DNA from: Muscardinus avellanarius
Lineage: Eukaryota > Chordata > Mammalia > Rodentia > Gliridae
Assembly (NCBI GenBank): GCA_963383645.1
Contig: OY726566.1
Coordinates: 100,121,802 to 100,185,801 of the forward strand
DNA: 64,000 nt
Reading direction: 5' to 3'
The notes under the pieces are model-generated. The model made no database searches. It was not told where the DNA came from and worked only from the letters and a program-made list of their open reading frames with translations. Position numbers and translations under genes: made by a program. This document shows positions 6,467-55,989 of the stretch, piece by piece. Within the stretch, counting starts at the first letter, position 1. Every line of letters begins with the position of its first letter.

Positions 6467-6481
6467 TCTTTCTCTGCATTC
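6467..6481. repeat. left target-site duplication of the L1 composite
   Basis: TCTTTCTCTGCATTC, identical to 12199-12213. It is followed directly by a T-tract, as expected for the 3' end of a minus-strand L1-type insertion. Confidence 0.8.
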
Positions 6482-6808
6482 CTTTTTTTAAAAATTTATT
6501 TATTTTTTATTGGTGCAATGTATTCATACATCATAATGATATAAAGAAAATACTTTTGTAGACATACATGCACACATTGCCCAGTTAGCCCCTACCCGTT
6601 CCCCACCCCATTCCCTCCCCATCCCTCCTTCCCATGCTTGGCTTAGTGGTTGACATCTAATTTTATAGCAATTTATCCAATATTAACGATGATAATCTCA
6701 CAAAACAGTTTCATTTGTCTGATACCAAGCTTTTGATGACTAAAAGATAACAGTTCAATATTTCTTTTTGCTTTCTTTCTTACCAGATAATATTTTTTTC
6801 TTTTCTTT
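6482..6808 (-). repeat. L1 3'-end module, distal copy
   Basis: Begins with a T-tract, then 'attggtgcaatgtattcatac', pyrimidine-rich 'ccccaccccattccctcccc' and 'gcttggcttagtggttgaca'. About 310 bp, closely similar to 6809-7106. This is the L1 3'UTR read on the opposite strand. Confidence 0.8.
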
Positions 6809-7106
6809 TTTTTTTAAATTTTATTTTATTGGTGCACTGTATTCATACATCATAGTGGGATACAAACTTTTGTAGACATACATGCACACATCGCCCAGTC
6901 AGCCCCCACCCGATCCCCACCCCATTCTCTCCCCATCCCTCCCTCCCATGCTTGGCTTAGTGGTTGACATCTAGTATTATAGCAATTTATCAAAAATTAA
7001 AAATGATAATCTCACATAACAGTTTCATTTGTCTGATACCAAGCTTTTGATGTCTTAAAGATAACATTTCAATATTTCTTTTTGCTTTATTTCTTACCAG
7101 AGAATA
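6809..7106 (-). repeat. L1 3'-end module, proximal copy
   Basis: Second copy of the module, again led by a T-tract (ttttcttttttttttaaa) that corresponds to an A-tail on the transcribed strand. Ends in 'cttaccagagaatatt', matching the end of the first module. Confidence 0.8.
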
Positions 7107-7122
7107 TTTTTTTCTTTTTTTT

Positions 7123-7862
7123 AGGTGAAACTATCATATATTTATTTTTCAGAAAAAAATCTATCCTGATATGGAATATGGACTCTAGATACCCAAAACA
7201 ATCTCGAAGCAAAAACAAACCTAGAAGATGTATATTTTCTGATTTCAAACCATATAAAGCTACAGTAATTGAAACAGTGTAGTACTGTTCTAAAGGCAGA
7301 TATATAGACCATTGGAGTTAAATACAAGCCTAGAGCTAACTTCTTCCCTATATTGTCAAGTTATTTTTGACAAGGTTTCCACGAAGATTTGGTGGTGGAA
7401 ATAATAATCGTTTAACTAAATATTGTTGAAAAATAATAATTACATGGAAAAGAATAAAATTGGACCCTTACCTAATCCCACATACAAGTATTAACTCAAA
7501 CTAGATAAAAGACCTAAATATAAATCTTAAGACTATAAACTTTTAGGAGAAAATCTGGGTCATAAAACCTCACAACATTGAAATTGGCAGTGATTTCTTG
7601 GATATGATTTCAATGGCACAGGCAACAGAAGAATATACAAACTCCCTAAAAAATAAAAGAAAATATTGTATATCCAAAGACAATGTAAACAGAGTTAAAA
7701 GTTACTAATAGAATTGGATAAAATATTTCCAAATGCTATATCTGAAGGTATATTAATATTCCAACTAGAAATCCTAAAAATTAACAACAATAAAGGCAAA
7801 CAATACAATTTAGAGATAGGTAAAAGACTAACATAAATAATGAATCTCCACAGATAACCAAT
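7123..7862 (+). repeat. antisense L1 ORF2 3' fragment inside unit 1
   Basis: In plus orientation this reads as the 3' quarter of L1 ORF2: 'acccaaaacaatctcgaagc', 'agctacagtaattgaaacag', then 'gataaaagacctaaatataa'. It is broken by many stops. It lies opposite to the ORF1 that follows it and occupies the same place in unit 2, so it belongs to the mobile unit and is not a chance neighbour. Confidence 0.7.
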
Positions 7863-7863
7863 C

Positions 7864-8826
7864 TTAGTTGTCTGTTGGATGGAAACTCTTGTTTCTCTGG
7901 TTCTGGTGAGTGTTACCTATTTCTTCTTTGTAGTTAATCTCTTTGAGTATTTTCTCTAGCGCTGGTTTTGAAGACATAAATTCCTTCAGTTTCTGTTTGT
8001 CATGGAAGCTTCTTATTTCTCCATCTAATTTGATAGAAAGTTTTGCTGGGTAGGAAATTTTTGGCTGGAAGTTGTTTTCTTTCAGAGTTTGGAATATGTT
8101 ACTCCAAGCCCTTCTGGCTCTCATGACTTGGTTTGGGAAGTCTGGAGTGATTCTAATTGGTTTGCCTCTGAATGTCACTTGGCCCTTTGTTTTTGTTGCC
8201 TTTAAGATTCTCTGCTTGGCTTCCACATTGGTCATTTTGACAATTATATGGCGTGGGGATCTTCTTCTCGGATCCTGTCTAAAGGGAGTTCTATAAGTTT
8301 CCTGGATCTGTGTATCAACCTCTTGCTCTATATTTGGAAAATTTTCTGCTATTACTTCCTTGAAGAGATTGTTGATCCCTTTGGTATCACTTTCTTTTCC
8401 CTCCTCTATTCCAATTATTCTTAGGTTAGCTCTCTTAAGATGGGCCCATATTTCTTCAATGTCAGATTCCTGCTGTTGGATATCTTTTTCTAGATTAGAA
8501 ACTATGCATTCATTTTTGGATTGCTCATCTTCTAAGAGCGAGATTCTGTTCTCCATGTGGTCTAATCGGTTGTTTGTGCTTTGAATTGAGGCCTTTACTT
8601 CATTAATTGCATCCTTTATCTCTTTTTGGCACTCTCTGAGTTCTTTTCGAAGCACCTCTATTATTTCTACAGTTATTTTCCTGATTTGATCTTCTAGAAA
8701 TCTCTGATTTTCTGTTTTATCAGGTTCTGATGTTGTGGGGTTGTGCACATTCATTACTTCAGTGTTATTCCTCTTTCCCATGATTTCGGAGGTTTGTGCC
8801 TTCTCTGGGTTCTTCCCTTGGGTCAC
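7864..8826 (-). CDS. L1 ORF1-like RNA-binding protein, unit 1
   Basis: Open frame of 320 codons. The likely native start is the internal Met at 8781 (MGKRNN...), giving 305 residues, because the equivalent upstream extension in unit 2 is interrupted by a stop. Residues about 35-110 of the shorter form are a coiled coil rich in E, K, I and L. An RRM-like domain starts near 'NLRIIGIEE' and contains 'RSPRHIIVKMT'. The C-terminal domain has 'FQPKISYPAKLS' and 'FHDKQKLKEFM', which match the ORF1p family closely. ORF1p trimerises and coats L1 RNA in the cytoplasm. The frame has no stop or frameshift. The C-terminus ends where the antisense ORF2 fragment begins, so the last residues may be replaced. 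Probably not expressed, though it is coding-competent on paper. Confidence 0.85.
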   Translation of the reverse strand: MTQGKNPEKAQTSEIMGKRNNTEVMNVHNPTTSEPDKTENQRFLEDQIRKITVEIIEVLRKELRECQKEIKDAINEVKASIQSTNNRLDHMENRISLLEDEQSKNECIVSNLEKDIQQQESDIEEIWAHLKRANLRIIGIEEGKESDTKGINNLFKEVIAENFPNIEQEVDTQIQETYRTPFRQDPRRRSPRHIIVKMTNVEAKQRILKATKTKGQVTFRGKPIRITPDFPNQVMRARRAWSNIFQTLKENNFQPKISYPAKLSIKLDGEIRSFHDKQKLKEFMSSKPALEKILKEINYKEEIGNTHQNQRNKSFHPTDN

Positions 8827-9556
8827 TATGGCTTCACTTAAGGTGCTTTGGATCTTGAGTCTGTATTATCTCAGACCCTACTACTCCTTTACTGGGTTGT
8901 ATCACAGAGTCTCCGACCCAGGGAGTCGATAGAGGCTGCTTTAAACTATGGGGGGTGCCAGGTTGCACGCTCTCCTATGGTGTGATATCTCTGCCACCAC
9001 CACTCCCTCACTGGGTCAAGTCCCAGGAGGCACAATACTGGGATTTCTCCTCTGTGGCCCGCAATTTGACTCACTGTTCTTGAGTACGTAGATGTAGCTG
9101 TACTGGACTCGGTGAATTCACTGCTGCTGCCGCCGCCGGTGGCAATATGGCGCCTCTGCCACGCCCTCGGCCATGAGGCTGGCATATTTTTTCTTCTCTG
9201 GTTTTGATTTCCACTCTGAATCCCTGCAGCGTGTGCTGAGCTCAGCCACTGGGAGCTTTAAATGCTGTCTGCGCCGAAAGATCCCGCCTGGCTGTTCCGC
9301 ATCGGCTCACCTCGGCTTGCTGTAACCGTCCGCTGAGTTCGCCGCTGCCGCCGCGTCCTCGGGCACGTGTGTCTCCTCTGTGGCCCTGAGCTCTGTTCTC
9401 AGTCCGCTTTCTCTCTGGAGCCTGGTGGTTTTTTTGTTTTTCTGGTGATGGTGTTTTCTGGCTATGCAAGGCGCTCTTTTTGTGGTAATGGAGATTGGTT
9501 GTTAGCGGGACTCTTAATCCCCGCTTTTCTTAGTCGCCATCTTCCCGGAAGTCCCC
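8827..9556 (-). promoter_or_regulatory. L1 5'UTR/promoter, unit 1
   Basis: GC-rich and CpG-rich sequence upstream of ORF1, about 730 bp. It ends (5' side) in CTTCCGGGAAGATGGCGAC. The GCCATCTT at 9536-9543 (AAGATGGC on the transcribed strand) is a YY1-type site, as found at the very 5' end of many L1s, where it positions transcription start. Contains several 'atggcgcc' motifs. Confidence 0.65.
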
Positions 9557-9570
9557 TTTTCTTTTTTTTT

Positions 9571-10317
9571 AGGTGAAGCTATCATACATTTATTTATTTA
9601 TTTATTTTTCAGAAAAAATCTATCCTGATATGGAATATGGACTCTAGATACCCAAAACAATCTCGAAGAAGAACAAAGCTAGAAGATATATATTTTCTGA
9701 TTTCAAATCATATAAAGCTACAATAATTGAAACAGTGTAGTACTGTTCTAAAGGCAGATATATAAACCATTGGAGTTAAATAAAAGCTTAGAGATAAATT
9801 CTTCCATATATTGTCAAGTTATTTTTGACAAGGTTTCCACGAACATTTGGTGGAGGAAATAATAATCTTTTAACTAAATATTGTTGAAAAATAATAATTA
9901 CATGAAAAAGAATAAAATTGGACCCTTACCTAACACATATACAAATATTAACTCAAACTAGATAAAAGACCTAAATATAAATCTTAAGACTATAAACTTT
10001 TAGGAGAAAATCTGGGTCATAAAATCTCACAACATTGAAATTGGCAGTGATATCTTGGATATGATTTCAATGGCACAGGCAACAGAAGAGTATACAAATT
10101 CCCTAAAAAATAAAAAAATATTGTATATCCAAAGACAATGTAAACAGAGTTAAAAGTTACTGATGGAATGGGATAAAATATTTCCAAATGCTATATCTGA
10201 AGGTATATTAATATTCCAACTAGAAATCCTAAAAATTAACAACAATAAAGGCAAACAATACAATTTAGAGATAGGTAAAAGACTAACATAAATAATGAAT
10301 CTCCACAGATAACCAAT
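9571..10317 (+). repeat. antisense L1 ORF2 3' fragment inside unit 2
   Basis: Same segment and same two boundaries as 7123-7862, about 5% different by eye, with a (TTTA)n expansion at 9587-9607. Confidence 0.7.
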
Positions 10318-10318
10318 C

Positions 10319-11236
10319 TTAGTTGTCTGTTGGATGGAAACTCTTGTTTCTCTGGTTCTGGTGAGTGTTACCTATTTCTTCTTTGTAGTTAATCTCTTTG
10401 AGTATTTTCTCTAGCGCTGGTTTTGAAGACATAAATTCCTTCAGTTTCTGTTTGTCGTGGAAGCTTTTTATTTCCCCATCTAATTTGATAGAAAGTTTTG
10501 CTGGGTAGGAAATTTTTGGCTGGAAGTTGTTTTCTTTCAGAGTTTGGAATATGTTACTCCAAGCCCTTCTGGCTCTCATGACCTGGTTTGGGAAGTCTGG
10601 AGTGATTCTAATTGGTTTGCCTCCGAATGTCACTTGGCCCTTTGTTTTTGTTGTCTTTAAGATTCTCTGCTTGGCTTCCACATTGGTCATTTTGACAATT
10701 ATGTGGCGTGGGGATCCTCTTCTGTGATCCTCTCTAACGGGGGATCTATAAGTTTCCTGGACCTGTGTATCAACCTCTTGCTCTATGTTTGGAAAATTTT
10801 CTGCTATTATTTCCTTGAAAAGATTGTTAATCCCTTTATTTTCACCTTCTTTTCTCTCCTCTATTCCAATTATTCTTAGGTTAGCTCTCTTAAAATGGGC
10901 CCATATTTCTTCAATATCAGATTCCTGCTGTCGGATATTTTTTTCTAGATTAGAAACTATGCGTTCATTTTTGGAATGATCATCTTCTAAGAGCGAGATT
11001 CTATTCTCCACGTGGTCTAATCGGTTGTTCATGCTTTGAATTGAGGCCTTTACTTCATTAATTGCATCCTTTATCTCTCTTTGGCTCTCTCTGAATTCTT
11101 TTCGAAACACCTCTATTATTTCTACAGTTATTTTCCTGATTTGATCTTCTATAAATCTCTGAATTTCTGTTTTATCAGGTTCTGATGTTGTGGGGTTGTG
11201 GGCATTCATTGCTCCATTCTTATTCCTCTTTCCCAT
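10319..11236 (-). CDS. L1 ORF1-like RNA-binding protein, unit 2
   Basis: Open frame of 305 codons starting MGKRNK. A TAA codon lies just upstream in frame, which supports this Met as the true start. Coiled coil, RRM-like and C-terminal domains are as in unit 1. The two proteins differ at about 33 of 305 positions. All but one of the differences lie before residue about 205; the last roughly 100 residues are almost the same. No stop or frameshift. Function in the family: an RNA chaperone of the L1 ribonucleoprotein. There is no ORF2 partner in this locus, so mobility would need reverse transcriptase from another L1. Confidence 0.85.
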   Translation of the reverse strand: MGKRNKNGAMNAHNPTTSEPDKTEIQRFIEDQIRKITVEIIEVFRKEFRESQREIKDAINEVKASIQSMNNRLDHVENRISLLEDDHSKNERIVSNLEKNIRQQESDIEEIWAHFKRANLRIIGIEERKEGENKGINNLFKEIIAENFPNIEQEVDTQVQETYRSPVREDHRRGSPRHIIVKMTNVEAKQRILKTTKTKGQVTFGGKPIRITPDFPNQVMRARRAWSNIFQTLKENNFQPKISYPAKLSIKLDGEIKSFHDKQKLKEFMSSKPALEKILKEINYKEEIGNTHQNQRNKSFHPTDN

Positions 11237-12198
11237 GATTTAGGAAGTTTGTGCCTTCTCTGGGTTCTTCCCTAGGTCACTACGACTTCACTTAAGGTGC
11301 TCTGGATCTCGAGTTTGTGGTATCTCAGTCCCCACTACTCCTTTACTGGGTTGTATCGCAGAGTCTCAGACCCCGGGAGTCAATCGAGGCTACTTTAGAC
11401 CATCGGGGGTGCCAGGTTGGGCGTTCTCCTATGGTGTAATATCTCTGCCACCACCACTCCCCCACTGGGTCAAGTCCCTGGGAGTACAGTACTGGGATAT
11501 CTCCTCTAGGGGCCGCAATTTGACTCACTGTTGAGTGTGCAGATGGAGCTGTCCTGGACTCGGTGAATTCGCTGCTGCCACCGCCGGTAGCAATATGGCG
11601 CCGCTACCACGCCCTCGGCCGTGAGGCTGGCGTATTTCTTTTCTGTTTTTGAACTCCACTCTGGGTCCCTGCAGGGTGCGCTGAGCCCAGCCTCTGGGAG
11701 CTTTAGCTGCTCTCTGCGCCGAGAAATCTGCCAAATCCCGCCCGGCTGTTCCGCAGCGGCTCACCTCAGCTCGCTGTCCGCCGCTCCTCTCTGGAGCTTG
11801 GTAGGCTGTTGAGTGTGTTGGTCTGGTGCCGTCCGGTGAACTCGCCGCTGCCACCAGCAGTAAGGCGCTGCTGCCGCGTTTTCGGGCATGAGGCCGGCGT
11901 ATCTCCTCTCTGGTTTCTGAGCTCTGTTATGAGTTACCTTCCTCTCTGGAGCCTGGTGCTGCAAGGCAAAATGGCGCCCGCCACTTTTCGCCGCGGCTCC
12001 GGCTGCAGCACTGCTGTCTGGTTTCTGGTGTCTGTTTTTCCAGCCCTCTTTTTCTCTGTCCCTTAAAATTACATTTTTTGTTTCTCTGCTGATGGTGTTT
12101 TCTGGCTATGAAAGGCGCTGATTTTGTGGTACTAGAGATTGGTTGTTAGCGGGGCTCGTAAGCCCCGTTTTGCTCCGTCGCCATCTTCCCGGAAGTTC
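11237..12198 (-). promoter_or_regulatory. L1 5'UTR/promoter, unit 2
   Basis: About 960 bp, CpG-rich. The YY1-type GCCATCTT is at 12180-12187. Contains related GC-rich blocks, each with 'ctctctggagc' and 'ctctgttctgagc'-like phrases (about 11750-11990), that suggest internal partial duplication. Unit 1 lacks part of this. Confidence 0.65.
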
Positions 12199-12213
12199 TC
12201 TTTCTCTGCATTC
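12199..12213. repeat. right target-site duplication of the L1 composite
   Basis: TCTTTCTCTGCATTC, identical to 6467-6481. Confidence 0.8.
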
Positions 12214-44545: not shown

Positions 44546-44961
44546 ACCTTTTACTTACTTAAATTTTTTTTTAAATTGGTGCATTGCAGTCTTATATCTT
44601 AATGGAGTACAAGATGGTAGAGGCATACATGCACACATCACTCATTTAGCTCTTTCCCAACTCCCACCCAGTTTCTCCACCCCTCCCTCCTTCTCATGTT
44701 TGGCTTAGCGATTGACTTTGACATGTGACTTTGTGCATGTGCATCATGTACATTCGGGAGTTTCCTCTTCCCCCAACCATCACCCCGAGTTAGGCTCCTC
44801 TATGGTTTCTCCTCCTTTGTCTCGTTCCTCCTATGACCCGTTCCCCCCCCCCCCCAGTTCCCACATATTAAGGAGAACATCCTGTTTCTTACTTTTTGTG
44901 ACTGTCTAATCTCACTTCTACAATATTCTCTAGTTCCATCCATTTCCCTGTAAATGATGTA

Positions 44962-49974: not shown

Positions 49975-49989
49975 TTTCCACTTACTTTA
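49975..49989. repeat. left target-site duplication of the VNTR composite
   Basis: TTTCCACTTACTTTA, identical to 54104-54118, followed at once by a long T-tract. Confidence 0.88.
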
Positions 49990-50182
49990 TTTTTTTTTTT
50001 CTTTTCTTTTCTTTTAAAAATGCTTTTATTGGTGCAATGTAATTATACATCATAATGAGCTATAGACTGATAATATATGTGTACACAACACTTTGTGTGT
50101 TTCCCTCCAGATCCTACCCAATGCCCTCTCCTCCTCTGCACATTACTGAGATTGGTACTGATAATTTTGTATATGTATATAG
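49990..50182 (-). repeat. L1 3'-end module, distal
   Basis: T-tract, then 'tattggtgcaatgtaattat', 'acatcataatgagctataga' and 'tttccctccagatcctaccc'. Confidence 0.75.
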
Positions 50183-50499
50183 CATTATTTATTTATTTAT
50201 TTATTTTTTATTTTTTTTATTTTTTTTAATTAATTTATTTTTTAAATTGGTGCATTGTAGTCATATATCAATCACATTGGAGTACAAGACTTGAGAGGAT
50301 ATACAAGCACACATCATCCAATTAGCCCTCCTCCAGCCCCCGTCCCATTCCCTCCCCCTCCCTCCATCCCACACTTCTTTGGTGATTTACTTTGATACAT
50401 TTGTTTATGTACCTCCTGCATTTTAAAGAGGCTCCGTCCTCCAGTATTACATACCCTCTGATTGATCACATTAGTTGCTTCACTATAGGGCCCTTTCTA
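50183..50499 (-). repeat. L1 3'-end module, proximal
   Basis: (TTTA)n and T-rich lead, then 'aattggtgcattgtagtcat', 'ccgtcccattccctccccct' and 'ggtgatttactttgatacat'. Closest to the L1 3' end at 44561. Confidence 0.75.
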
Positions 50500-50624
50500 T
50501 AGCTCAACCTCTTCCTGTTGCCCTTTTCCTCCTAGTTATTGCTGATTAAGAGAAGCGTCTGATTTATATTTTCTGCGATATTTCTCTGTGCATGCTGCGT
50601 TGCAAGTACCAATCCCACTCTTGA

Positions 50625-53110
50625 TGGTCCCAGTAGTGGCCTGGCTACTCAGTGGACTGATCCAGACCTCGCTGGCTCACGCAGCGGCCTTGCCTCATGG
50701 GAGGACCCAGTTCTGGTCTCACTGGCCCCTGAACCGGTCAAACCCCTAAGCTGGCTTTGGTCCCGACCTTGGAGGCCGCAGGAGTGAACTTGCCTCACGC
50801 CAGGCTCCGATGCTGGCCATTGGCCCCTGCACCGGTCTAACCCCTTGGCAGGATTCCAATCCCGGCCTCGGAGGCCCCAACACTGGTAATGCCTCACGGC
50901 AGGCTCCGATGCCGGCCTCACTGGCCCCAGCACCGGCCTAACCCCTTGACAGGCTCTTATCCTGGCCTCAGAGGCCCCAGTACCGGCCTTGCCTCACGGC
51001 AGGCTCCGATGCCGGCCTCGCTGGCCCCAGCACCGGCCTAACCCCTCGGCATGCTCCGATCCCGGCCTCGGAGACCCCAGGACTGGTCATGCCTCACGGC
51101 AGGCTCCGCTGCCGGCCTCGTTGGCCCCAGCACCGGCCTAACCTCTTGGCAAGCTCTTATCCTGGCCTCGGAGGCCCCAGTACCGGCCTTGCCTCACGGC
51201 AGGCTCCGATGCCGGCCTCACTGGCCCCAGCAGCGGCCTAACCCCTCGGCAGGCTCCGATCCCGGCCTCGGAGGCCCCAGTACCGGCCTTGCCTCACGGC
51301 AGGCTCCGATGCCGGCCTCGCTGGCCCCAGCACCGGCCTAACCCCTCGGCAGGCTCTTGTCCTGGCCTCGGAGGCCCCAGTACCGGCCTTGCCTCACGGC
51401 AGGCTCCGATGCCGGCCTCGCTGGCCCCAGCAGCGGCCTAACCCCTCGGCAGGCTCTTATCCTGGCCTCGGAGGCCCCAGTACCGGCCTTGCCTCACAGC
51501 AGGCTCCGATGCCGGCCTCGCTGGCCCCAGCAGCGGCCTAACCCCTCGGCAGGCTCCGATCCCGGCCTCAGAGGCCCCAGTACTGGTCATGCCTCAAGGC
51601 AGGCTCCGATGCCGGCCTCGCTGGCCCCAGCACCGGCCTAACCCCTCGGCAGGCTCTTGTCCTGGCCTCGGAGGCCCCAGTACCGGCCTTGCCTCACGGC
51701 AGGCTCCGATGCCGGCCTCGCTGGCCCCAGCACCGGCCTAACCCCTCGGCAGGCTCTTGTCCTGGCCTCGGAGGCCCCAGTACCGGCCTTGCCTCACGGC
51801 AGGCTCCGATGCCGGCCTCGCAGGCCCCAGCAGCGGCCTAACCCCTCGGCAGGCTCTTATCCTGGCCTCGGAGGCCCCAGTACCGGCCTTGCCTCACGGC
51901 AGGCTCCGATGCCGGCCTCGCTGGCCCCAGCAGCGGCCTAACCCCTCGGCAGGCTCCGATCCCAGCCTCGGAGGCCCCAGCACTGTTCATGCCTCAAGGC
52001 AGGCTCCGATGCCGGCCTCGCTGGCCCCAGCACCGGCCTAGCCCCTTGGGAGGCTCTTATCCTGGCCTCGGAGGCCCCAGTACCGGCCTTGCCTCACGGC
52101 AGGCTCCGATGCCGGCCTCGCTGGCCCCAGCACCGGCCTAACCCCTCGGCATGCTCCGATCCCGGCCTCGGAGGCCCCAGCACTGGTCATGCCTCACGGC
52201 AGGCTCCGCTGCCGGCCTCGTTGGCCCCAGCACCGGCCTAACCCCTCGGCAAGCTCTTATCCTGGCCTCGGAGGCCCCAGTACCGGCCTTGCCTCACGGC
52301 AGGCTCCGATGCCGGCCTCGCTGGCCCCAGCACCGGCCTAACCCCTCAGAAGGCTCTTATCCTGGCCTCGAGGCCCCAGTACCGGCCTTGCCTCAAGGCA
52401 GGCTCCGATGCCGGCCTCGCTGGCCCCAGCACCGGCCTAACCCCTCAGCAGGCTCTTATCCTGGCCTCGGAGGCCCCAGTACCGGCCTTGCCTCAAGGCA
52501 GGCTCCGATGCCGGCCTCGCTGGCCCCAGCACCGGCCTAACCCCTCGGCAGGCTCTTGTCCTGGCCTCGGAGGCCCCAGTACCGGCCTTGCCTCAAGGCA
52601 GGCTCCGATGCCGGCCTTGCTGGCCCCAGCACCGGCCTAACCCCTCAGAAGGCTCTTATCCTGGCCTCGGAGGCCCCAGCACTGGCCTAACCCCTCGGCA
52701 GGCTCTTATCATGGCCTCGGAGGCCCAAGTACCGGCCTTGCCTCATGGCAGGCTCTGATGCCAGCCTCGCTGGCCCCAGCACCGGCCTAACCCCTCAGCA
52801 GGCTCCGGTCCCATCCTCGGGGGCCCCAACACTGGCCTTGCCTCACGGCAGGCTCCGATGCCGGCCTCGCTGACCCCAGCACCAGCCTAACCCCTCAGCA
52901 AGTTCCGGACCCGACCTCGGAGGCCCTAGCACAAGCCTTGCATCATGGCAGGCTCCAATGCCGGCCTCTCTGGCCCCAGCATCGGTCTAACCCCTCGGCA
53001 GGCTCCGATCCCGGCCACGGAGGCCTCAGTAGTGGCCCTGCCTCACAGCAAGCTCCGATGTCGGCCACTGGCCCCGGCGCCCGCCTAACCCCTCAGCAGG
53101 TTCCGATCAC
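50625..53110 (-). repeat. 100-bp GC-rich VNTR (dimer of 50-bp halves)
   Basis: About 25 tandem copies. Each 100-bp unit is two 50-bp halves. Half A holds 'ccggcctaacccctcggc' and ends 'ggcctcggagg'; half B holds 'ccggccttgcctcacggc' and ends 'ggcctcgctgg'. Variants 'ctccgatcccggcc' and 'ctcttatcctggcc' alternate among units. The core (about 50900-52750) is very uniform; both edges are degenerate. One base is lost near 52371, which shifts the register. Because 100 is not divisible by 3, the many open frames here are by-products. Confidence 0.97.
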
Positions 53111-53596
53111 TGTCTCTGTGGTTAGTATTTCAAAGGTTCCAGTTGTAATGTATCAGATCTCTGCCTCCCCCGAATATTGGCCACTGGCATTGCCACTGCC
53201 TCCACCGTTTCAAATCCTTCCCAGGCTCTTTTTCCACTCTGAATGTTGTCCAGTGTTCCTAAGCATGCGTGATGGTAGCATTCGACATTTGGTGTAATTT
53301 CTCCAAAAAAAATAAAGTTGGTAAGATCCGGTTTCTGCTTCTCCTGAATACAAGTCTCTACCACCATCGCGAAGAACTCTTTCAACACCGCATTTCTCCT
53401 TGGTCTCCGCTAAACTCTCTCCTTATATGTGATGTCTGAGATTCTTAACAATATAGAGAAATAGCAGTCCTCTTTCACGGCGAATTTTTCCATAAGTTCC
53501 AGTGCATTTAGATAAGTTTTGTCTGCATCTCCAGTGTCCTGGCATCCATAACGGCTTTCTTACCACCTCTCCGATATTTTTCTTTATCTTTTTCTG
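53111..53596 (-). other. single-copy segment of the VNTR composite
   Basis: Not repetitive within this window and not GC-rich, in contrast to its two flanks. On the minus strand it has several coding-like stretches in different frames, the longest being the 88-codon frame at 53122-53388. Analogous in position to the acquired segments of SVA or LAVA; its source is not recognised. Confidence 0.6.
53122..53388 (-). CDS. 88-codon open frame of unknown origin
   Basis: Begins MLKEFFAMVVETC, contains 'FGEITPNVECYHHAC', ends 'DTLQLEPLKY'. Composition looks protein-like (mixed charged and aromatic residues, no low complexity). Upstream, on the same strand, another frame reads 'LELMEKFAVKEDCYFS' and ends at a stop about 25 bp before this Met. 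That pattern would fit a decayed gene fragment captured by the element. No family recognised; it may also be chance. Expression is unsupported. Confidence 0.3.
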   Translation of the reverse strand: MLKEFFAMVVETCIQEKQKPDLTNFIFFGEITPNVECYHHACLGTLDNIQSGKRAWEGFETVEAVAMPVANIRGRQRSDTLQLEPLKY

Positions 53597-54103
53597 TTCT
53601 GGGCCCGGTTTCTCCAGGGGTCTGGCGTGCTACTCGCAGTTCGGCAGGGACCCAGAGTCCCGCGATCCGGGCCCCAGCTGGCGTGCCCTGTGCTCAACCC
53701 CCGCCCAGAACCCAGCGTCTTACTGGGCCTTGTTTCTCCAGGGGTCTGGCGTGCTACTCGCAGTTCGGCCTGGGGCCCAGAGTCCCGCGACCCGGGCCCC
53801 ATCTGGCGTGCCCAGCCCGCGACCCCTGCCCAGAACCCAGCGTCTTACTTGGCCTGGTTTCTCCAGGGGTCTGGCGTGCTATGCGCAGTTCGGTCTGGGG
53901 CCCAGAGTCCCGCGACCCGGGCCCCATCTGGCGTGCCCAGCCCGCGACCCCCGCCCAGAACCCAGCGTCTTACTGGGTCTGGTTTCTCCAGGGGTCTGGC
54001 GTGCTACGCGCAGTTCGGCCGGGGCCCAGAGTCCCGCGACCCGGGCCCCATTAGGCGTGCCCCGCCCGCGACCCCCGCCCAGAACCCAGCGTCTTACTGG
54101 GCC
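53597..54103 (-). promoter_or_regulatory. four 125-bp 5' monomers, CpG-rich
   Basis: Four head-to-tail copies with spacings 125, 125 and 124 bp, measured from the shared 'cccagcgtct' at 53711, 53836, 53961 and 54085. Each carries 'ggtttctccaggggtctggc', 'cccagagtcccgcgacccgg' and 'cgacccccgcccagaaccca'. Placement at the 5' end and high CpG content recall the promoter monomers of mouse and rat L1, so a promoter role is inferred. Confidence 0.75.
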
Positions 54104-54118
54104 TTTCCACTTACTTTA
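54104..54118. repeat. right target-site duplication of the VNTR composite
   Basis: TTTCCACTTACTTTA, identical to 49975-49989. Confidence 0.88.
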
Positions 54119-55773: not shown

Positions 55774-55989
55774 TTGGAGTGGAGTTCCCGGCCTGGCTCC
55801 TGAGGGCTGCTCCCCTCCCCAGGCTGGTTGGAGTGGAGTTCCCGGCCTGGCTCCTGAGGGCTGCTCCCTTCCCCAGGCTGGTTGGAGTGGAGTTCCCAGC
55901 CTGGCTCCTGAGGGCTGCTCCCTTCCCCAGGCTGGTTGGAGTGGAGTTCCTGGCCTGGCTCCTGAGGGCTGCTCCCCTCCCCAGGCTGG
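55774..55989 (+). repeat. 54-bp minisatellite, four copies
   Basis: Copies start at 55774, 55828, 55882 and 55936 ('ttggagtggagttcc'), a constant 54-bp period with only a few base changes. The period is a multiple of 3, so frames stay open on both strands, including an 18-residue repeat 'GWSGVPGLAPEGCSPPQA'. That is a result of the period and is not evidence for a gene. Confidence 0.95.

Follow-up and report, generated by a model that had tools for sequence, protein, structure and literature searches.

Does the compound insertion at positions 49990-54103 of a 64,000-nucleotide stretch of the Muscardinus avellanarius genome (contig OY726566.1, positions 100,121,802 to 100,185,801 of the forward strand; the whole stretch is hereafter called the window) stand alone, or is it one copy of a mobile family built like the hominoid SVA and gibbon LAVA elements? 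A preliminary description, made from the letters of the window, had presented it as a single insertion with a perfect 15-bp target-site duplication (TSD), joining CpG-rich monomers, a single-copy segment, a GC-rich array with a variable number of tandem repeats (VNTR) and L1 3' ends. From the following lines of evidence, we regard it as very likely belonging to a large and young family of non-autonomous VNTR-composite retrotransposons, the single-copy segment of which is present in roughly 2,500 copies in this genome.

First, the element has the limits and the parts that were ascribed to it. It is read on the minus strand, where its 5' to 3' order starts with the monomers and finishes with the terminal A-tail (Table 1). 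The window contains just two exact occurrences of the TSD (TTTCCACTTACTTTA), and both adjoin the element. Among the 70 collapsed pairs of exact 15-mer direct repeats lying 2-8 kb apart in the window (pairs internal to the VNTR being left out), this pair flanks the element directly and nearly all of the remaining ones sit, as judged by eye, within short interspersed element (SINE) or L1 repeats. The tandem repeats were described by Tandem Repeats Finder (TRF), base composition and a parse of the units. TRF reported 4.1 copies of 125 bp for the monomer array (53599-54104) and, for the VNTR, 22.1 copies of 100 bp at 50685-52888 plus a stretch at 52715-53105. The interior VNTR units mostly show 0-3 differences from the A or the B unit (7-9 for some B units), and the units at both ends of the array are more divergent than the interior ones. 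The GC contents and the observed/expected CpG ratios are 0.70 and 0.58 for the VNTR and 0.71 and 0.72 for the monomers, as compared with 0.40 and 0.31 for the left flank and 0.46 and 0.21 for the right flank.

Table 1. Parts of the composite element and its target-site duplication in the window.
Feature	Position	Strand	Basis
Target-site duplication, left copy	49975..49989		Exact 15-mer, 2 occurrences in window
Outer (second) L1 3' end and terminal A-tail	49990..50184	-	L1 homology; private to the window copy among those examined
A-rich tail past the family's own 3' end	50185..50244	-	Sequence; A-tail at the same position in fetched copies
Family 3' domain, L1 3' untranslated region (UTR)-like end (end1)	50245..50600	-	Near-identical in fetched copies
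Central GC-rich VNTR, alternating 50-bp A/B units (100-bp dimer)	50601..53105	-	TRF and unit parse; end1 boundary approximate
Single-copy segment, about 490 bp	53106..53598	-	486 bp of the segment in 40 scored genome matches
5' domain: four 125-bp CpG-rich monomers; likely promoter region	53599..54103	-	TRF
Target-site duplication, right copy	54104..54118		Exact 15-mer

Both L1 ends proved to be L1-like. The inner one (50245-50640) aligns to a window L1 end at 44549-44960 with a score of 146 (best of 200 shuffles, 42), and the outer one aligns to the window L1 ends near 6.8 and 6.5 kb with scores of 95 and 93 (best shuffles, 42 and 64). The upstream portion, 50420-50640, taken alone did not match the L1 end significantly (score 33; best shuffle, 42). 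The reading frames tested in the single-copy segment found nothing in Pfam (best 0.14, below the cut-off), the PDB or the protein collection. Exact patterns of the element had no match in viral contigs and only two 19-mer matches in genome contigs, both in bacterial metagenome-assembled genomes, which by our own estimate is about the number expected by chance. Splicing at the junction between monomers and single-copy segment, where a GTAAG lies at the boundary, is not claimed, since a 7-bp microhomology (GGCCCAG) explains this junction equally well.

Second, the parts recur together throughout the genome (2.497 Gb in 104 contigs). The search for the single-copy segment, which had been suggested as the check for a mobile family, yielded 1,450 first-look candidates, of which 40 were scored; 14 of these, the window's own copy counted, are identical over 486 bp. 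A 30-mer from this segment was found, with up to three mismatches, at 2,556 places (1,290 + 1,266), and its reversed control at none. Similarly, the 356-bp end1 gave 1,319 first-look candidates, and all of the 40 that were scored are 100% identical to it. On one contig (C1), 13 of the 20 scored end1 matches have, no more than 6 kb away, an exact copy of the single-copy 30-mer among the first 100 places listed, all of which are on C1. We fetched 24 copies, namely the 20 best of the 39 non-own single-copy matches and four copies along C1 taken from the exact 30-mer list. The order of the parts is the same in all of them: 125-bp GC-rich monomers, single-copy segment, 50/100-bp VNTR, one L1 3' end and A-tail. 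This finding contradicts the possibility, also considered in the preliminary description, that the parts never occur together elsewhere. The fetched copies measure 3.6-8.0 kb up to the end of end1, with 2.2-11.3 monomers and a VNTR of 1.35-6.4 kb, and their end1 identity is 99.1-100% in the 20 best copies and 98.6-99.7% in the four C1 copies.

None of the 24 fetched copies showed a match to the outer L1 end (49990-50184) at E 1e-8, and this end is therefore a feature of the window copy and not of the family. Hence, of the L1 3' ends first listed among the parts, only the inner one belongs to the family. The outer one is probably a 3' transduction, or it may be a later L1 insertion into the A-tail.

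Third, the copies bear the hallmarks of separate insertions. Their own TSDs, 10-17 bp long, are present and distinct in 23 of the 24 fetched copies (19 of the 20 best, median 14 bp; all four C1 copies, with 13, 15, 15 and 16 bp). Full copies with one part order and differing TSDs are what the preliminary description had asked for as proof of a mobile family. As a control, junctions were compared within and between copies: a stretch of at least 12 nt at the junction is common to the 5' and 3' sides of 18 of 20 copies (10 nt in L026), as compared with 4 of 380 mismatched copy pairs. The target consensus over 19 sites is TT/AAAA on the element strand, with T at positions -2 (11 sites) and -1 (15), and A at positions +1 (13), +2 (17), +3 (16) and +4 (18). 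This consensus is complementary to TTTT/AA, the site cut by the L1 endonuclease. An extra G stands between the TSD and the element in 6 of 19 copies, as well as in L037 and L040. The copy's own further monomers carry another base at that position in seven of these eight cases, L037 being uncheckable, and so the G is untemplated, as expected when reverse transcription reaches a capped 5' end. The elements begin at different phases of the monomer unit, most often at (C)AGACCCCTGGAG (6 of the first 20 copies), consistent with transcription starting inside the monomers. In L038, the 15-bp TSD recurs 566 bp further on (32 and 598 nt after end1) with sequence that looks L1-like by eye in between; perhaps a second insertion occurred at the same target.

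Fourth, several copies have carried along 3' flanking DNA. Non-A sequence separates end1 from the TSD in L016 (430 nt), L017 (209 nt), L027 (94 nt), L030 (823 nt) and L040 (88 nt). The extra DNA of L030 corresponds to the 3' side of L020 (A-tail, target and flank; 809 bp at 99.5%), past which L030 has a new A-tail and then its own TSD, and the 5' flanks of these two copies do not match each other. Together, these data indicate that, as far as the assembly shows, L020 is the source of L030 via an RNA. The VNTR is 1.35 kb long in L020 versus 3.47 kb in L030, so the array length changed in one of the two copies. The L1-driven mobility proposed at the outset is thus supported by the target consensus of the family, its A-tails and 3' transductions, and the untemplated 5' G of several copies.

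The mean pairwise divergence, calculated over the 20 best copies and that of the window (21 in all), is 0.00135 for the single-copy segment, the part by which the 20 best copies were chosen, and 0.0055 for end1; among five copies (the window and the four C1 copies) it is 0.0095 and 0.0118, respectively. At the mammalian rate of 2.2e-9 per site and year, these sequence divergences would correspond to about 0.3 to 3 million years, both samples favoring young copies.

Several observations weigh against our reading of the family. For seven of the 20 end1 matches on C1, the list shows no exact single-copy 30-mer closer than 6 kb; truncation or mutation of these copies may be the reason. No clear TSD was recognized in L029, and one mismatched pair in the TSD control (L028/L018) reached 15 nt, in low-complexity sequence. 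Odd bases occur at some 5' junctions (2-3 in L025 and L027), and L021 has nine outside the monomer match. Furthermore, as the copies were picked by similarity (20) or by exact 30-mers (four, on one contig), old or truncated copies are under-sampled.

Regarding the helper that such a family would need, a reverse transcriptase profile search gave 26,731 first-look candidates, of which 150 were scored; 72 of these 150, counted twice by hand, lie in stop-free frames of 1278 amino acids, so that an L1 helper is at hand. Two fetched young L1 copies (L035 and L036) are 99.945% identical over 7,232 bp; one has both open reading frame (ORF) 1, of 305 amino acids, and ORF2 open, and the other has a shorter open ORF1 frame. 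Their 5' UTR (586-1347 of L035, with a like stretch in L036) has a GC content of 0.61 and internal repeats 68-79% alike, and it contains long open frames on both strands, of 210 amino acids in sense and 223 in antisense.

Could the composite be an internally deleted L1, in which a VNTR grew between 5' UTR monomers and an L1 3' end, as in a relative of the half-L1s? Its 3' end is indeed L1-like, the young L1s also have internal repeats in their GC-rich 5' UTR, tandem 5' UTR monomers are known in mouse L1, and a real ORF2-less L1 derivative occurs in the window, at 6482-12198. However, neither the monomers nor the single-copy segment nor the VNTR matched the two full-length young L1s at E 0.01, which indicates that the composite did not arise from that L1 by deletion; the best match of a monomer to the L1 5' UTR is 13 nt long (E 0.025), and elsewhere in the window these three parts find nothing better than E 0.08. 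In addition, end1 is only 72% identical to the 3' end of the young L1s, over 135 bp, which suggests that the 3' end of the composite comes from another L1 lineage. We thus consider such a deletion origin improbable.

Still less probable is the retrocopying of a host long RNA gene having a CpG-island promoter and a VNTR, the copies of which would be processed pseudogenes and not an element. The single-copy segment could be a host exon captured once, but the 2,556 places found for its 30-mer, the retention of the 5' monomers in the fetched copies and the behavior of L020, a copy that itself served as a source, argue against this origin. As for a spread through segmental duplication or satellite expansion, it is the least probable of all: although tandem arrays are prone to unequal exchange and the VNTR varies in length, distinct TSDs adjoin the ends of nearly all fetched copies, which also have A-tails, the 5' flanks of the 20 best copies share only stretches of 48-226 bp at 67-88% identity, in a pattern of interspersed repeats, and long near-identical 3' sides occur in a single pair (L020/L030) among these 20.

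Returning to a VNTR-composite retrotransposon, we propose that RNA polymerase II would start its transcription within the 125-bp monomers of the 5' domain, with a mode expected at CAGACCCCTGGAG, cross the single-copy segment and then the GC-rich VNTR, and reach the L1-derived 3' end, sometimes reading on into flanking DNA. ORF proteins supplied by an active L1 would then capture the polyadenylated RNA in trans, and target-primed reverse transcription would insert it at TT/AAAA sites. We infer from the open L1 frames and the insertion hallmarks, an indirect basis, that the composite depends on L1 in trans; the monomers presumably act as its promoter, and the family would still be active at present.

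To what known elements can the composite be compared? VNTR composites are described as hominoid-specific (PMC4432496; PMC7353768); they share a 5' CT-hexamer/Alu-like region and the VNTR, their 3' ends differ, and the 3' part of gibbon LAVA includes an L1 fragment (PMC4432496). Among the papers listed in our literature search, none announced a VNTR composite outside hominoids. Tandem CCCTCT or TCTCCC runs of at least two units, in these registers, were found in none of 25 copies (the 24 fetched ones and the window), from the 5' end to the end of the single-copy segment. Hence, the composite works in an SVA-like manner, but by this hexamer test it is not a member of SVA/LAVA. Regarding the 5' Alu-like region, Rfam, which includes the 7SL/SRP (signal recognition particle) RNA, gave nothing up to E 1 in 50600-54110. 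The composite does possess a central VNTR comparable with the 30-50-bp GC-rich units of the hominoid elements (alternating 50-bp units, GC 0.70), as well as TSDs, A-tails and L1-type target sites.

Like SVA, which numbers thousands of copies in human, the composite is a non-autonomous assembly of 5' repeats, a GC-rich VNTR with units near 50 bp and a 3' end from another retroelement, with A-tail, TSDs, 3' transductions, low divergence and copies by the thousand. It differs from SVA in that its 5' region is a CpG-rich 125-bp monomer array followed by a 490-bp single-copy segment, in place of a CT-hexamer run, and in that its 3' end derives from L1, whereas that of SVA derives from an endogenous retrovirus. 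The gibbon elements LAVA, PVA and FVA have the same general architecture, LAVA also with an L1 fragment in its 3' part, but their 5' region is of the SVA hexamer/Alu-like type and that of the composite is another domain. Mouse L1, the 5' UTR of which contains tandem GC-rich monomers, resembles the composite in the variable number of these monomers and in 5' ends at varied unit phases; the composite has no recognized L1 ORF, and the two young L1 copies examined showed none of its monomers. HAL1 (half-L1) is likewise non-autonomous and dependent on L1, but it retains ORF1, whereas the composite frames tested match no known protein family. Membership in L1 or half-L1, judged by shared 5' UTR or ORF sequence, received no 5' match to L035 or L036, two young copies of one lineage.

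An SVA-like layout and mode of copying made from different parts suggest that such elements may have arisen more than once. We therefore think it likely, comparing with SVA by description and by the hexamer test, that the family represents a second, independent origin of a VNTR-composite retrotransposon. It would comprise about 2,500 copies in a non-hominoid genome and probably still be mobile, and its parts would be CpG-rich monomers as the promoter, a captured single-copy segment, a minisatellite and the 3' end of an L1. The SINE and L1 types of this genome agree with the rodent host named in the preliminary description, and its repeats have a sciurid look. If this is true, CpG-rich 5' repeats, a GC-rich VNTR and an A-tail would be a recurrent solution for hijacking L1. 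Knowing that the same build was made from other parts, it becomes testable which SVA features are needed for L1 trans-mobilization: those common to SVA and the composite (5' repeats, GC-rich 50-bp VNTR and A-tail) make a shortlist, and the unshared ones may be dispensable. The roughly 2,500 CpG-rich copies could also serve the host as regulatory elements and be targets of silencing.

The L1 derivative at 6482-12198 lies on the minus strand between TSD copies (TCTTTCTCTGCATTC) at 6467-6481 and 12199-12213. This one TSD-flanked insertion contains two tandem copies of a unit made of 5' UTR, ORF1 and 3' UTR, 92% identical in the main block. Each copy has an open ORF1 frame of 305 amino acids (7867-8781 and 10322-11236) that matches Pfam PF02994 and PF17490; the whole is a half-L1-like, ORF1-only dimer. 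The ratio of nonsynonymous to synonymous substitution rates (dN/dS) between the two frames is 0.62 (p 0.18). An inverted ORF2 piece was considered in this insertion and rejected, as the comparison with L035 shows an L1 3' UTR in sense. The 3' end of the insertion (6482-7122) is itself tandemly duplicated (326-bp alignment, 88% identical). Finally, a separate minisatellite at 55774-55989 consists of 4.0 copies of 54 bp with a 96% match, and differs by eye from the VNTR of the element.

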